NCBI GenBank assembly: GCA_031275645.1
Contig: JAISOL010000009.1
Span: 1-64,000 of the forward strand
Origin: Deltaproteobacteria bacterium
Lineage (GTDB): Bacteria; Desulfobacterota; Desulfovibrionia; Desulfovibrionales; Desulfovibrionaceae
Length of the DNA: 64,000 nt
Direction: 5' to 3'
Below, in pieces: positions 46,796 through 52,187 of the stretch (the first letter of the stretch is position 1; each line of letters opens with the position of its first letter). Position numbers and translations under genes: made by a program. Under the pieces are notes generated by a model. That model was given only the letters and a program-made list of their open reading frames with translations, had not been told where the DNA came from and ran no database searches.

Positions 46796-47432
46796 ATGCT
46801 TATGATAAAAAAAGCAACGGGCGTGTTTCTTGCCGCCTTGTCGCTTGCCTGCATTGCCGCCTGCGAACGGGATTCGCCTTTGCCGGCGCGGGATCAGTAT
46901 CCGGTCTATGCCTCTTACCGGGATATCCCCGGCGTGACGGCCGGGGATATCAGAGCTGTTGAGGATTTGCGGGCGCGCGGAGACGAGTTAGTCTATGGGA
47001 TGAACTGACCACCGAGACTTTTTACGACAAGAACGGTGAAGTCAGGGGATACAGCGCTTTGTTCTGCGCCTGGCTGACTGATTTATTCGGGATCCGCTCA
47101 GGACCGCGATCTATGAATGGGACGAACTGCTTGCCGGGCTGGAAGCCGGGAGCATTGATTTCACCGGAGAGTTGACCGCCACGGAAGAACGGCGGAAGAC
47201 TTTTATTTTCATGGATGTGCGTATGCCGGAGATGGACGGCTATGAAGGCACAAGGCGGATTCGGGCGCTTGCTTTGCCCTCCGCGGGGAAGATTCCTGTC
47301 ATAGCCATGACCGCCAATGTTTTCAGGGAAGATATTGAGAAATGCCTGGAAGCAGGAATGAACGACCATGTGGGCAAGCCGCTGAATCTGGAGGATGTGC
47401 TGGCGGCCTTGCGCAAATATCTGGTATCCTGA
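46796..47432 (+). pseudogene. Degraded hybrid sensor kinase: signal/SBP_bac_3 region joined to a REC C-terminus
   Basis: Three frames in series: ...ARGDELVYGMN | ELTTETFYDKNGEVRGYSALFCAWLTDLFGI | TAIYEWDELLAGLEAGSIDFTGELTATEERRKTFIFMDVRMPEMDGYEGTRRIRAL... Confidence 0.8.
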
Positions 47433-47563: not shown

Positions 47564-49126
47564 TCAGCGAATCTTTTCCTGTTGTTTCCACATGAGATCC
47601 GCCTTGGGCAAAAGAGGCAGATATCTGGTCCAGACATGGGATTCCAGAGCGGCCTTGTCCATTTGTTTTTCCCGGCTCCATTCCAGAAGAGGAGGCACAA
47701 TCTTTTTAATGTCGCCTTCCAGCCTCGGGGCTGTGCCGTAGTTGGTGGCCTGCATGGCGTAATTTACGGCCATCTGGCTGTATTCCAGGGATTTTTGGGC
47801 CGTATCCAGGGCTTTGGCCGGGTTATGGAAGCCCACGCTGTTTTCGGCGGAGAGATAATCCCAGTAGAACTGGCCCTTACGCACCATTTCCTTGGCCTGG
47901 ATCAAGAGCTGTTCGTAGTTGGCGTTTCTCGGGCCGCTCCATTCGTTGGCCAGACGCACGGCCTCATGCGCCCGCACCGACATATCCTGGGCCGAAAGCA
48001 GGTTTTCAAAGGTCTTATGCTGCGTGTAGAGCACGCGCTCGCGCAGATAGTCCGCGGATTTGTCCGTATGGCATTGCCGGCAGGCATTGTCTATGCCCTG
48101 CGGTGTCTTGAGCGGAGAAGTCCACTGGTGGCTGGAAACTTTCCTTTTGCCGTCCATGCGCACATAGGGCATGTGGCAGTCGGCGCAGCTTACGCCGGCC
48201 GCGCCGTGGGGGCCGTTGTACCAGGTTTCATATTCCGGATGCTGGGCCTTGATGATCAGGGTCTTGGAGGCGGGGTGGCGGAAATCGAAGAATTGCCCCT
48301 CAAAACCCTTATCTTCCGCTATACCGTGGCTTTTATAGTATTCATACATGGGCCCGGGGTCCATGCCGTTGTCCCAGGGTAACACGGGCTTTTTGTTCGG
48401 TCCGTACTTGGCTTCCTGGAAATAATATTCCACATGGCATTGGGCGCAGACCAGGGAGCGCATCTCGTTGCGGCTCATCTGGCGCCAGTCTTTGCCCTGG
48501 CGTTTCAGAGCTTCGTCCAGAGGAAAACTGGTGATCACCAGTTCCATGTTTTCCGGATTGTGGCAGTTGGCGCAGCCTATGGTGTGTTCATTGACGTCAA
48601 TCTTGTCCTTGGTCCTGAACAGGTTGAAGTTCATGGACCAGAACTTGTCATCTCCGTATTCCTCCACCCAGGAAGGGATTTTGGGAGTCTTGCAGTTCCA
48701 GCAGGTGGCGGGGAGTCCGGCCGCCATGTCATAGCGGTTGATCCGGTCGATTTCCAGAATATCGTACACGGCATAAGTGTGCCCGCGCGCTTCGTTGTAT
48801 TCAAAGCTGAAGGGGTAACCGGACCAGAGGTTTTTAAGATAGGGCTGAGCATGCTTGAAGCCTGTGGGCAGGGGGTTCACGTCGTCGTTTTTGTGATAGG
48901 GCACCGAACCTTTGAATTCGGTCATAATTTCGCTTTCGTTGTTGCGCAGGAAGGTGGTGTATTCCTGCGGAAACTGCCTGCCGAAGGCGGAAACGCGCAA
49001 TTCATCCTTGGCAAGAGATGTTTTATAGGTCGGGGTGAGCGGTTCCTCGGCGTCCGAACAGCCGATCAAGGCGATCAGGGCCGCGCAGGCCGCCATAATC
49101 AACAGAATGAGCAACTTTCTAGACAT
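47564..49126 (-). CDS. nrfA: Ammonia-forming cytochrome c nitrite reductase
   Basis: CWNCK active-site haem motif plus CANCH, CAQCH, CADCH, CRQCH. Confidence 0.96.
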   Translation of the reverse strand: MSRKLLILLIMAACAALIALIGCSDAEEPLTPTYKTSLAKDELRVSAFGRQFPQEYTTFLRNNESEIMTEFKGSVPYHKNDDVNPLPTGFKHAQPYLKNLWSGYPFSFEYNEARGHTYAVYDILEIDRINRYDMAAGLPATCWNCKTPKIPSWVEEYGDDKFWSMNFNLFRTKDKIDVNEHTIGCANCHNPENMELVITSFPLDEALKRQGKDWRQMSRNEMRSLVCAQCHVEYYFQEAKYGPNKKPVLPWDNGMDPGPMYEYYKSHGIAEDKGFEGQFFDFRHPASKTLIIKAQHPEYETWYNGPHGAAGVSCADCHMPYVRMDGKRKVSSHQWTSPLKTPQGIDNACRQCHTDKSADYLRERVLYTQHKTFENLLSAQDMSVRAHEAVRLANEWSGPRNANYEQLLIQAKEMVRKGQFYWDYLSAENSVGFHNPAKALDTAQKSLEYSQMAVNYAMQATNYGTAPRLEGDIKKIVPPLLEWSREKQMDKAALESHVWTRYLPLLPKADLMWKQQEKIR

Positions 49127-49592
49127 CTGCAGCCCTCCTCTTGTCCAGGGGAACTTTGTTCATGTGGGGCAGGGAACGGTGACAGTCCGTGCAATACGCC
49201 TTCACGTCCATGTTGACCTCCCGTACCGTCGCATAGTGGCAACGCACGCAGTTGGCCTTGATCACGTTCTTCATGCCGGCCTGGACCTCAATATTGTCCG
49301 CCACATCCATAAAGGTGTTGACCACGATGTCGCTGATTCCGGTTTTGGCCTTGTAGGCCAGCATGTAGGCCGCGCCGTTGTGCGGAATGTGGCACTCGTT
49401 GCAGGCCTGTTTCGCATGCGCGCTCTGTTTGTGGGTCCAGGCCGCCTCCGCCATGACGTGGCAGCTTGCGCAGAAGGAGGCCGTATCGGTGGCGCTCAGG
49501 ACGGCGCCTCCCCCCAGGATTGCAAGCGCGCCGGCCAGAAAGGCAGCCGCGGGTAAAAGACATTTCCCGCCAGGGCTCCTGTTTTTGGTCAT
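49119..49592 (-). CDS. nrfH: Cytochrome c nitrite reductase small subunit NrfH (NapC/NirT family)
   Basis: TM anchor; CASCHVM, CNECH, CVRCH, CTDCH. Confidence 0.94.
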   Translation of the reverse strand: MTKNRSPGGKCLLPAAAFLAGALAILGGGAVLSATDTASFCASCHVMAEAAWTHKQSAHAKQACNECHIPHNGAAYMLAYKAKTGISDIVVNTFMDVADNIEVQAGMKNVIKANCVRCHYATVREVNMDVKAYCTDCHRSLPHMNKVPLDKRRAADV

Positions 49593-49696
49593 TATTCCCT
49601 CCTTTGGGTTGCACGGGTGTGCTTTCGCGGCATAGTCCGCCGCGTACAGGCTGAACCTCCTCAATATCCCAGCTTTAATATTTTATTTATGGGAGT

Positions 49697-49717
49697 AACA
49701 ACCCCTTTCCAAAGGGG
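49697..49717. promoter_or_regulatory. Repeat/operator candidate copy A, upstream of nrfH
   Basis: AACAACCCCTTTCCAAAGGGG; identical to 50285-50305. Confidence 0.6.
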
Positions 49718-49786
49718 CAATTCCGAAACGGGAGCCCGTGTTTCCGCACAGGAAAGAAGTATGGAAGGCTCCTTCCGGAATAGGAA

Positions 49787-50197
49787 TTATTCCCGCGGGT
49801 ATTGCCGCAATATTTCTTCCAAGGAAATATTGTCGAGAGATTTTTGAAATTCGGCGGAAATTCCGTTCCAGACGGCGCGCCGGACGCAATTTAGCTGGTT
49901 GGGGCATTCGTTGGCTTTTTCTCCGCAGCAGACGGAAAAATCGACTCCCTCGTCCAGGATGGCTATGAGTCTGCCCAAGCTGATTTCCTGAAGAGGAACG
50001 GACAGGGATATGCCGCCTCTGGCTCCCACCGTCCCGGCGGTGAGGCCGCTCCTGCTCAGGGAGGCGTGCAGGTTTTCCACCGTGCGCGGGGCTATGCCCG
50101 TTTTTCTTGAGATAAGGGATATGGACAGAGGGGAAGAGTTTTTTTTCAATTCAAAGAGTATTCTCACGGCATAGCGGACTAAAGTGGCAAGTTTCAT
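49787..50197 (-). CDS. Rrf2 family transcriptional regulator
   Basis: MKLATLVRYAVRILFEL, HTH with PRTVENLHASL, Cys cluster CCGEKANECPNQLNC. Confidence 0.88.
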   Translation of the reverse strand: MKLATLVRYAVRILFELKKNSSPLSISLISRKTGIAPRTVENLHASLSRSGLTAGTVGARGGISLSVPLQEISLGRLIAILDEGVDFSVCCGEKANECPNQLNCVRRAVWNGISAEFQKSLDNISLEEILRQYPRE

Positions 50198-50284
50198 AAA
50201 ATTCGCACGGGTTGGAGCGTCTTCCCACAATCTCTTCAGCGCTGAATCTTCCTATAGCTCTGCTTAATTTCTCGATTCGGCTTA

Positions 50285-50305
50285 AACAACCCCTTTCCAA
50301 AGGGG
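50285..50305. promoter_or_regulatory. Repeat/operator candidate copy B, upstream of the rrf2 gene
   Basis: AACAACCCCTTTCCAAAGGGG; perfect inverted repeat CCCCTTT-CC-AAAGGGG. Confidence 0.6.
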
Positions 50306-50414
50306 TGATTCCAAATTCCGGGAATTAATTTTCCGGATGGAATTTGCGGTTTTATCCGGCGTACCGCGAAGGCGCGGGGCTCCAGCGTGACGCGATTTTT
50401 ATCTGGAATACGAA

Positions 50415-50693
50415 TCAGTCGGAGAGAAGGGCTTTTTTTATGCTTTCTTCCAGCAGGGGGTAATCCCCGGCGGCGGAGATCAGCTTTTTTCCGCTTCGGC
50501 CGCGCAACTCAGAATGCTCCGCGCATTGCGCCCGGCAGCCGCAAAGCACAGCCACGAAGTCGTGTTCGTTCTCCGGGTGTGCCTCCACAATTTCAAGCTG
50601 AGGCAGGGCGGTGCGCAATTTCAGGCACAGCGCCCTGCGATCGAAATGGGGGTTGCACCCTCCGCAGTATTTCACAAACACCCTTTTCGGCAT
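50415..50693 (-). CDS. Small Cys-rich hypothetical protein downstream of the abfD-like gene
   Basis: KYCGGCNPHFDRRALC and LCGCRAQC motifs; same strand as 50739-52187; start could be 50702. Confidence 0.65.
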   Translation of the reverse strand: MPKRVFVKYCGGCNPHFDRRALCLKLRTALPQLEIVEAHPENEHDFVAVLCGCRAQCAEHSELRGRSGKKLISAAGDYPLLEESIKKALLSD

Positions 50694-50738
50694 GGCCGGC
50701 ACACGTCAGGGAGTATTCCCGGTATTTCGCCGCCCCGG

Positions 50739-52187
50739 CTATTTGATGCGGGCTATGTTTTTGGCCAGGGCTTTCTTCCGCTCCATATTGCCCAGGCGGG
50801 CAATCACGATGCGCTGGGCCTGGGGAGAACCGGCTCCGTGCATGGACTCCGTGCGATAACCCACAGCGGCCGCGCCCAGAGTGAGGTTTTCGATAAGGCG
50901 CATAATTTTCAGGCGATCCTCCGTGGGCGTGGAAGCCACGCCGCGCAGGTATTTATCCAGATACGGCCCTATGCGGGGGTGGCGCAGATCCTTCTCCGAA
51001 GGAGCGGTGACCATGAGCCCGCCGGCTATATCCTCGGCCAGGCGGGTGATTTCGTAGGGGAAGCGGGTGACGTTCTGCTTGCAGACGTTGGCCAGAAGCA
51101 GATCTATGAGGTAATTGCCGGAGGCCGTTTCGGAGCCCTCGCAGGAACAGGCTATGCCGCTGGAGTACAGGGTTTCGTTAAGATGGGTCATCTCGATGAG
51201 CTTGTCCTTAATATGGCTGGCCTTGTGCGCGCCGTTGTATTCGGCGGCCAGGGCGGCCGCGCCTATGAGCACATCGCCCACGCCGACCTTGCAGCCGCCG
51301 TAGCTCTGGCGGTGGTAGCCGGCAAAGCGCTCCACCAGCATACCCGAAAAATCCGTCTCCCCGTTGAGGAAGATGCGCTCGTTCGGCACAAACACATTGT
51401 CGAAAATGACCAGGGCCTCAACCCCGCCGAATTCGCGGTTGCCCACGTCCAGATCGCTCCCTTCCAGCTTTCTGGTGTCGCAGGACTGGCGGCCTATGAC
51501 CATGAAAAGGTTCTCCGCGTCCAGGGGCACGGCGAAGGAAACGGCATAGTCCCTGTCTTCCGGCCCCATGGCGATGGTGGGCATGACCAGCACCTGATGG
51601 GAGTTGCAGATACCCGTCTGGTGCGCCTTGGCTCCGCGCACGACAATCCCGTCCTTGCGGCGCTCCACCACGCGGAGGTAAAGATCCGGGTCGGCCTGGC
51701 GGCCGGGGGAAAGACCGCGATCTCCCTTGGGGTCGGTCATGGCCCCGTCCACGGTCCAGTCTTTTTCCTGGGCTTCCTTGAGGAACTCCAGAAAGTTTTC
51801 GTGGTATTTCGTGCCGTGCTTCCTGTCGCATTCATAAGTGGTGCTGAAAACGGAATTGAAGGAATCCAGGCCCACGCAGCGCTGAAAACAGGAGGCGGTT
51901 CTCTGCCCGCACAGGCGCTGCATCTTGACCTTTTTCACCAGATCGTCCGTGCTGTGATGGATATGGCAGAAACGGTTGATCTTTTTCCCGGTAAGGTGGG
52001 ATTTGGCGGTCATCAGGTCGGCGTGTTCCGGCAGTTGCGCCAAATCGTAGGTGGCCTTCACCGAGTTGAGAGAGGGGCGCAGGATGGGGTTGTCCACCGG
52101 GTTATCCACGGTTTCTCCGAACATGTAAATTTTCATCTTCAATCGGCGTATGCTTTCCACATACTCATCGCCTGTCATAAGGGCCAT
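50739..52187 (-). CDS. abfD: 4-hydroxybutyryl-CoA dehydratase / vinylacetyl-CoA isomerase family
   Basis: LCGQRTASCFQRC and YHRQSYGGCKVGVGD match the Cys/Cys and His/Cys iron-sulfur ligand pattern. Confidence 0.88.
   Translation of the reverse strand: MALMTGDEYVESIRRLKMKIYMFGETVDNPVDNPILRPSLNSVKATYDLAQLPEHADLMTAKSHLTGKKINRFCHIHHSTDDLVKKVKMQRLCGQRTASCFQRCVGLDSFNSVFSTTYECDRKHGTKYHENFLEFLKEAQEKDWTVDGAMTDPKGDRGLSPGRQADPDLYLRVVERRKDGIVVRGAKAHQTGICNSHQVLVMPTIAMGPEDRDYAVSFAVPLDAENLFMVIGRQSCDTRKLEGSDLDVGNREFGGVEALVIFDNVFVPNERIFLNGETDFSGMLVERFAGYHRQSYGGCKVGVGDVLIGAAALAAEYNGAHKASHIKDKLIEMTHLNETLYSSGIACSCEGSETASGNYLIDLLLANVCKQNVTRFPYEITRLAEDIAGGLMVTAPSEKDLRHPRIGPYLDKYLRGVASTPTEDRLKIMRLIENLTLGAAAVGYRTESMHGAGSPQAQRIVIARLGNMERKKALAKNIARIK

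Follow-up and report, generated by a model that had tools for sequence, protein, structure and literature searches.

The nrfHA-rrf2 locus and its repeat

The window, i.e. the whole 64,000-nucleotide stretch that was analysed, carries an rrf2-type regulator gene, nrfH and nrfA, all on the minus strand (Table 1). The nrfH and nrfA products are typical NapC/NirT-type and c552 proteins; the best NCBIfam match of the former is NrfH (TIGR03153), at 107 bits below the cut-off of 134. The closest named relatives of NrfA come from Desulfovibrionaceae metagenome bins, D. cuneatus or D. piger, several of these bins being presumably, from their isolate names, termite-gut genomes. No hcp match at E ≤ 1e-60 was present in the genome to which the window belongs.

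Some neighbouring features were noted in passing. Directly downstream of nrfA, at 46860-47432, lie the remains of a broken hybrid sensor kinase, namely pieces of the input domain, interrupted by stops and frame changes, and then an intact receiver domain (PF00072); a similar but intact kinase is found near hcp-rrf2 in another genome (G196, L068:10682-14122). Upstream of rrf2, a 95-aa ORF (50418-50702, minus strand) that contains a CGGC motif and matches nothing in Pfam or NCBIfam adjoins the gene of an HpaB-like flavoprotein (50742-52187).

Table 1. Genes and predicted regulatory elements of the nrfHA-rrf2 locus (coordinates of the window)
Feature	Position	Strand	Characteristics and basis
nrfA, cytochrome c nitrite reductase	47564..49126	-	PF02335, E=2.2e-120
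nrfH, tetrahaem quinol dehydrogenase of the nitrite reductase complex	49119..49592	-	PF03264; start at 49592
-10-like TATTAA (predicted nrfH promoter)	49675..49680	-	spacer of 15; individually weak
-35-like TTGTTA (predicted nrfH promoter)	49696..49701	-	overlaps inner operator half; fixed spacing over 16 promoters
26-bp operator (predicted) upstream of nrfH	49697..49722	-	sense strand AATTGCCCCTTTGGAAAGGGGTTGTT; kept at nrfH in 11/16 testable clade genomes
rrf2-type regulator gene	49787..50197	-	136 aa; invariant C90-X7-C98-X5-C104; PF02082, E=1.3e-24; start at 50197
-35-like TTGTTT (predicted rrf2 promoter)	50284..50289	-	overlaps inner operator half; no clear -10
26-bp operator (predicted) upstream of rrf2, autoregulation	50285..50310	-	sense strand AATCACCCCTTTGGAAAGGGGTTGTT; sites also in relatives

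A first-pass annotation of the sequence had described an identical 21-bp repeat, in the same orientation, about 105 bp upstream of nrfH and 88 bp upstream of rrf2. The repeat, AACAACCCCTTTCCAAAGGGG on the plus strand, is exact at 49697-49717 and 50285-50305, both copies do point the same way, and the gaps, once remeasured, were of 104 bp (nrfH) and 87 bp (rrf2). The similarity extends beyond the 21 bp to a 26-bp element, AACAACCCCTTTCCAAAGGGG(CA/TG)ATTCC. No exact repeat of its kilobase is longer than these 21 bp; the best of 500 Markov-simulated kilobases reached 15 bp, and no other 1-kb segment of the 64 kb contains an exact repeat of at least 16 bp.

The genome was searched by pattern matching on its draft assembly (1.81 Mb, 89% complete). 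The dyad core CCCCTTTNNAAAGGGG occurs at these two places only, and the 26-bp pattern, with up to three mismatches allowed, gave 13 other matches versus 13 for a reversed-pattern control. As the looser matches are no more numerous than in the control, the local regulon is apparently limited to rrf2 and nrfHA. Used alone as a pattern for the whole family, the core CCCCTTTNNAAAGGGG proved unspecific, most of the other matches being the cores of long, hairpin-like, purine-rich inverted repeats; for that reason the flanking AAC/GTT bases were required. Two genomes of one genus (G012 and G053; L005, L006, L017 and L018) contain 19 and 11 copies of CCCCTTTNNAAAGGGG, mostly within longer purine-rich inverted repeats: these are probably terminators or a small family of palindromic repeats.

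The regulator and its clade

The regulator belongs to the Rrf2 family (87.2 bits for PF02082, cut-off 30; 79.3 bits for rrf2_super, cut-off 73.3). By the curated cut-offs it is neither IscR, NsrR, RirA nor CymR: it scored 27.3 bits against the NCBIfam NsrR equivalog (cut-off 182) and 75.1 bits against that of IscR (cut-off 207.55). In profile comparisons, its nearest solved relatives were IscR, then other Rrf2 proteins including CymR and NsrR. A search of the genome contigs for loci related to the Rrf2 protein returned none.

The cysteine cluster of Fe-S Rrf2 type seen in the first-pass annotation is a constant trait of the clade to which the regulator belongs: C90, C98 and C104, located in the C-terminal loop with a C-X7-C-X5-C spacing, are invariant in all members. 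The spacing differs from that of NsrR, and so does position 8, an invariant Arg in the clade versus Asp in NsrR, where Asp8 is a cluster ligand of the ScNsrR protein (PMC5411485). The position aligned with 107, a His ligand in IscR, is an Arg in the regulator. On a 12-row alignment, E41 is invariant together with R8; it aligns with E43 of IscR, which contacts a C of the operator half-site (PMC9338935). The wing sequence is VGxxGG or IGxxGG in the clade (once GGARGG) and RGxxGG in other Rrf2 paralogues. In some clade regulators (L021, the rrf2 of G063; L048, of G056; L053, of G119) an in-frame stop near the C-terminus, just past the conserved domain, leaves a short C-terminal end.

The clade was found in 21 of 288 genomes of the family, with a maximum likelihood support of 100/100. 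Full-length members scored below 1e-47 with the clade's own profile; a truncated copy (G111, 2.8e-39) was assigned by the tree. A sample of 395 genomes of the phylum held no full member besides the window's own copy. In most genomes the clade gene has nitrogen-oxide genes as neighbours: nrfHA (the window genome, G000, and G111, G199, G195), nrfHA with cytochrome c maturation genes (G063, G049, G008, G101), nrfHA and hcp (G017), hcp (G196, G123 and also G008) or napA (G107, G095, G131, G225, G226 and also G111, G199, G195).

Conservation of the predicted operator and promoter geometry

Related 26-mers were found upstream of nrfH in 11 of the 16 testable clade genomes versus 1 of the 39 genomes without the clade protein. 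They share the motif AAY..CC..GGGTTGTT, located 47-128 bp before the start codon, with GGTTGTT always toward nrfH. The corresponding Fisher p value (4e-7) is descriptive only, because the motif was picked on the same data and because related genomes were counted as independent. With matrices built by leaving out one genus at a time, the sites were recovered in g1, g18, g40 and most of g20 (the window site and those of G111, G063, G199, G195, G017, G107, G056 and G095), and from 0 to 2 of the 39 controls scored as high; in the remainder of g20 (G131 and G119) the outer half-site has drifted and the score was weak. A site is also present in the rrf2 promoters of the window genome, G223 and G107, and in G199 and G195 a single site lies within the region shared by the divergent rrf2 and nrfHA. 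In G107 the nrfH site and a close copy of the regulator are on different contigs, which makes the link between them independent of adjacency. The one genome with a site and no clade regulator found in its assembly is G078.

The nrfH site was absent in five testable clade genomes (G196, G008, G049, G101 and G062). Some clade genomes without it have the motif in front of hcp instead, as G196 and G008 among these five; the other three are without any convincing site. The search near hcp, which the first-pass annotation had suggested, was thus positive. A matrix derived from the nrfH and rrf2 sites only, the hcp sites of G123, G008 and G196 being left out of its training, gave the hcp promoter region as the top match of the 16-20 kb surrounding the regulator in each of these genomes: two palindromes in G123, AACTCCCCCTTTGCAACGGGGTGGTT and ATCCACCCCGTTGCAAGGGGGTAGTT, one site about 64 bp before hcp in G008, AACTCCCCTGTTCTAACGGGGTAGTT, and one in G196, ATTTCCCCACATCCAAAGGGGTAGTT. 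In G017 a near-perfect palindrome, AACAACCACCTTGCGAGTGGGTTGTT, lies between the divergent nrfH and hcp, with a second site facing hcp. No site was detected in the hcp upstream regions of four non-clade genomes, nor at hcp in G095 and G107, where the hcp matches were more divergent from the query.

The position of the sites relative to the promoter is fixed. Over 16 promoters, a TATAAT-like box is found 16-18 bp past the end of the operator, an arrangement equalled by none of 1000 shuffles (p = 0.0006 for the nrfH promoters alone). As a consequence of this spacing, the inner half-site covers the -35 position, the dyad centre falling near -44; the -35 hexamers within the inner half are TTGTTA, TTGTTT or TAGTTA.

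The proposed switch, its alternatives and its relation to known regulators

The first-pass annotation had interpreted the repeats as operators of an autoregulated switch for nitrite ammonification, and the footprint at nrfH (11 genomes), rrf2 and hcp of the clade supports that view. The two repeats are very probably the operators of the adjacent Rrf2 regulator, which would most likely be an Fe-S repressor. A dimer of the regulator would bind the 26-bp dyad AAYNNCCCC-N8-GGGGTTGTT, the gene-proximal half of which covers the -35 region of both the nrfHA promoter and the regulator's own promoter. The three invariant cysteines would hold an Fe-S cluster, and the repressor would be released once NO or nitrite stress damages it; the outcome would be a small autoregulated switch for nitrite ammonification. 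Candidate signals are NO, nitrite, O2 or Fe-S status. Since the clade and its operator also serve hcp in relatives, the job of the regulator would be the handling of nitrite and NO, a role similar to that of NsrR.

Other readings of the repeats were considered. The two copies are 21/21 identical, as expected for a recent local duplication or a dispersed repeat without regulatory role, a reading that we hold to be hardly credible: only the motif is common to both places, the flanks being different, its position is conserved in other genera, and the draft genome holds no further close copy, so that the dispersed repeat envisaged by the first-pass annotation found no echo there. Both repeats could also end the transcripts of the upstream genes, as intrinsic terminators or attenuators, the other possibility that had been raised from the outset. 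A terminator scan did flag both of them as terminator-like on the minus strand, they fold as RNA at about -12 kcal/mol, and each is located downstream of another minus-strand gene or ORF. Yet the folding z-scores are just -1.3 and -1.4, the tail is TTGTT and not a true U-tract, and the homologous sites of G199 and G063 do not fold stably; moreover, in G199 and G195 the site lies between two genes transcribed away from each other, a place that calls for no terminator, and conservation goes with the regulator and with the spacing to the -10 box. A terminator is for these reasons very unlikely. Slightly less so, but still improbable, is a site for another regulator (e.g. HcpR, NrfR or an unlinked factor), the linkage to rrf2 being incidental. 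In other Desulfovibrio, NrfR and HcpR act on nrfHA and hcp (PMC5701242, PMC1274295), and G078 has a site without the clade protein; on the other hand, the motif differs from the TGTGA-N6-TCACA of HcpR (PMC5701242), no sigma-54 activator gene is present near nrfHA in the contig, and genomes without the Rrf2 clade lack the nrfH site, with 1 exception in 39. The eleven PF00158 matches of this genome are all on other contigs, and a sigma-54 promoter pattern, with up to two mismatches, was found at nrfH in 7 of the 39 non-clade genomes and in none of the clade genomes, a contrast that is not decisive.

The alternative that deserves most attention keeps the same operator and regulator and changes the sign of the control: the protein would be a class-II-type activator, bound next to a weak -35 with its centre near -44, where it would recruit RNA polymerase. 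This mode of action has been proposed for apo-IscR at suf. We regard such activation as possible, albeit as the lesser prospect. The operator-to--10 spacing is fixed over the 16 promoters and the -35 hexamers are poor matches (TTGTTA, TAGTTA, TGGTTT), both of which suit an activator; a repressor sitting on the -35, however, would give the same geometry, and the promoters of G199, G195 and G017, with TTGTTA, a 16-17 bp spacer and good -10 boxes (TGTAAT, TATAGT, TATATT), could work unaided. In E. coli, hcp and nrf belong to the NsrR regulon and are repressed by NsrR, according to a passage of PMC12285233 that cites Filenko 2007. By analogy with this repressor of the same targets, we give a modest preference to repression over activation by the Rrf2 regulator.

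The relation of the proposed Rrf2 repressor to IscR and NsrR is one of partial resemblance. IscR is among the closest solved relatives and shares with the clade the E41/E43 position; a CCC...GGG dyad of about 26 bp also recalls the IscR type 2 sites, the half-site spacing being different. The regulator lacks the His at the H107 ligand position, and its gene is unlinked to isc or suf. NsrR, an NO-sensing Fe-S repressor, has in common with it the Rrf2 fold and three invariant cysteines, as well as a small regulon with autoregulation and the same types of target, predicted here in silico from sites upstream of nrfH, of rrf2 and, in relatives, of hcp. The NsrR site is a 23-bp, AT-rich sequence; the CCCC/GGGG dyad is, as the first-pass annotation had it, unlike the NsrR consensus.

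In sulfate reducers, nitrite ammonification has been described as being under the control of the sigma-54-dependent NrfS-NrfR and of HcpR (PMC5701242, PMC12285233); a 2025 review gives NrfS-NrfR for D. vulgaris only. D. vulgaris, of the same bacterial family, has its nrfHA operon controlled by the two-component system NrfS-NrfR, but NrfR, a sigma-54 activator (PMC5701242), belongs to another protein class and uses another type of promoter. In Desulfovibrio, hcp and the genes of nitrosative stress are under HcpR, which is of the CRP/FNR family and, as seen above, has another operator. The Rrf2 family takes its founding member, the Rrf2 of the hmc operon of D. vulgaris, from the same bacterial family; the target of that protein is hmc. 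In the open-licence papers searched, no report came up of nrfHA or hcp being regulated by an Rrf2 protein in Desulfovibrio. The protein would thus be a regulator undescribed in that literature, with an NsrR-like role and set apart from NsrR and IscR by its scores against their cut-offs, its residues at the ligand positions and its operator. We lean towards the view that a separate Fe-S Rrf2 clade, confined to the Desulfovibrionaceae, evolved an NsrR-like regulon (nrfHA, hcp and itself) with its own operator, one half-site of which doubles as the -35. If so, the clade would replace the known NrfSR and HcpR circuits in these lineages, or act beside them: this points to a third, independent and Rrf2-based circuit for nitrite ammonification, with explicit operator, promoter geometry and targets, and suggests that hcp and nrf came under NsrR-like control on another branch of the Rrf2 family, by way of another DNA site.

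A last observation concerns the four genomes where cytochrome c maturation genes accompany nrfHA (L060, L253, L062 and L069). There, NrfHA is of a second, divergent type (34-37% identity), and its operon, with two genes for cytochrome c maturation, has the rrf2-clade gene at its end.
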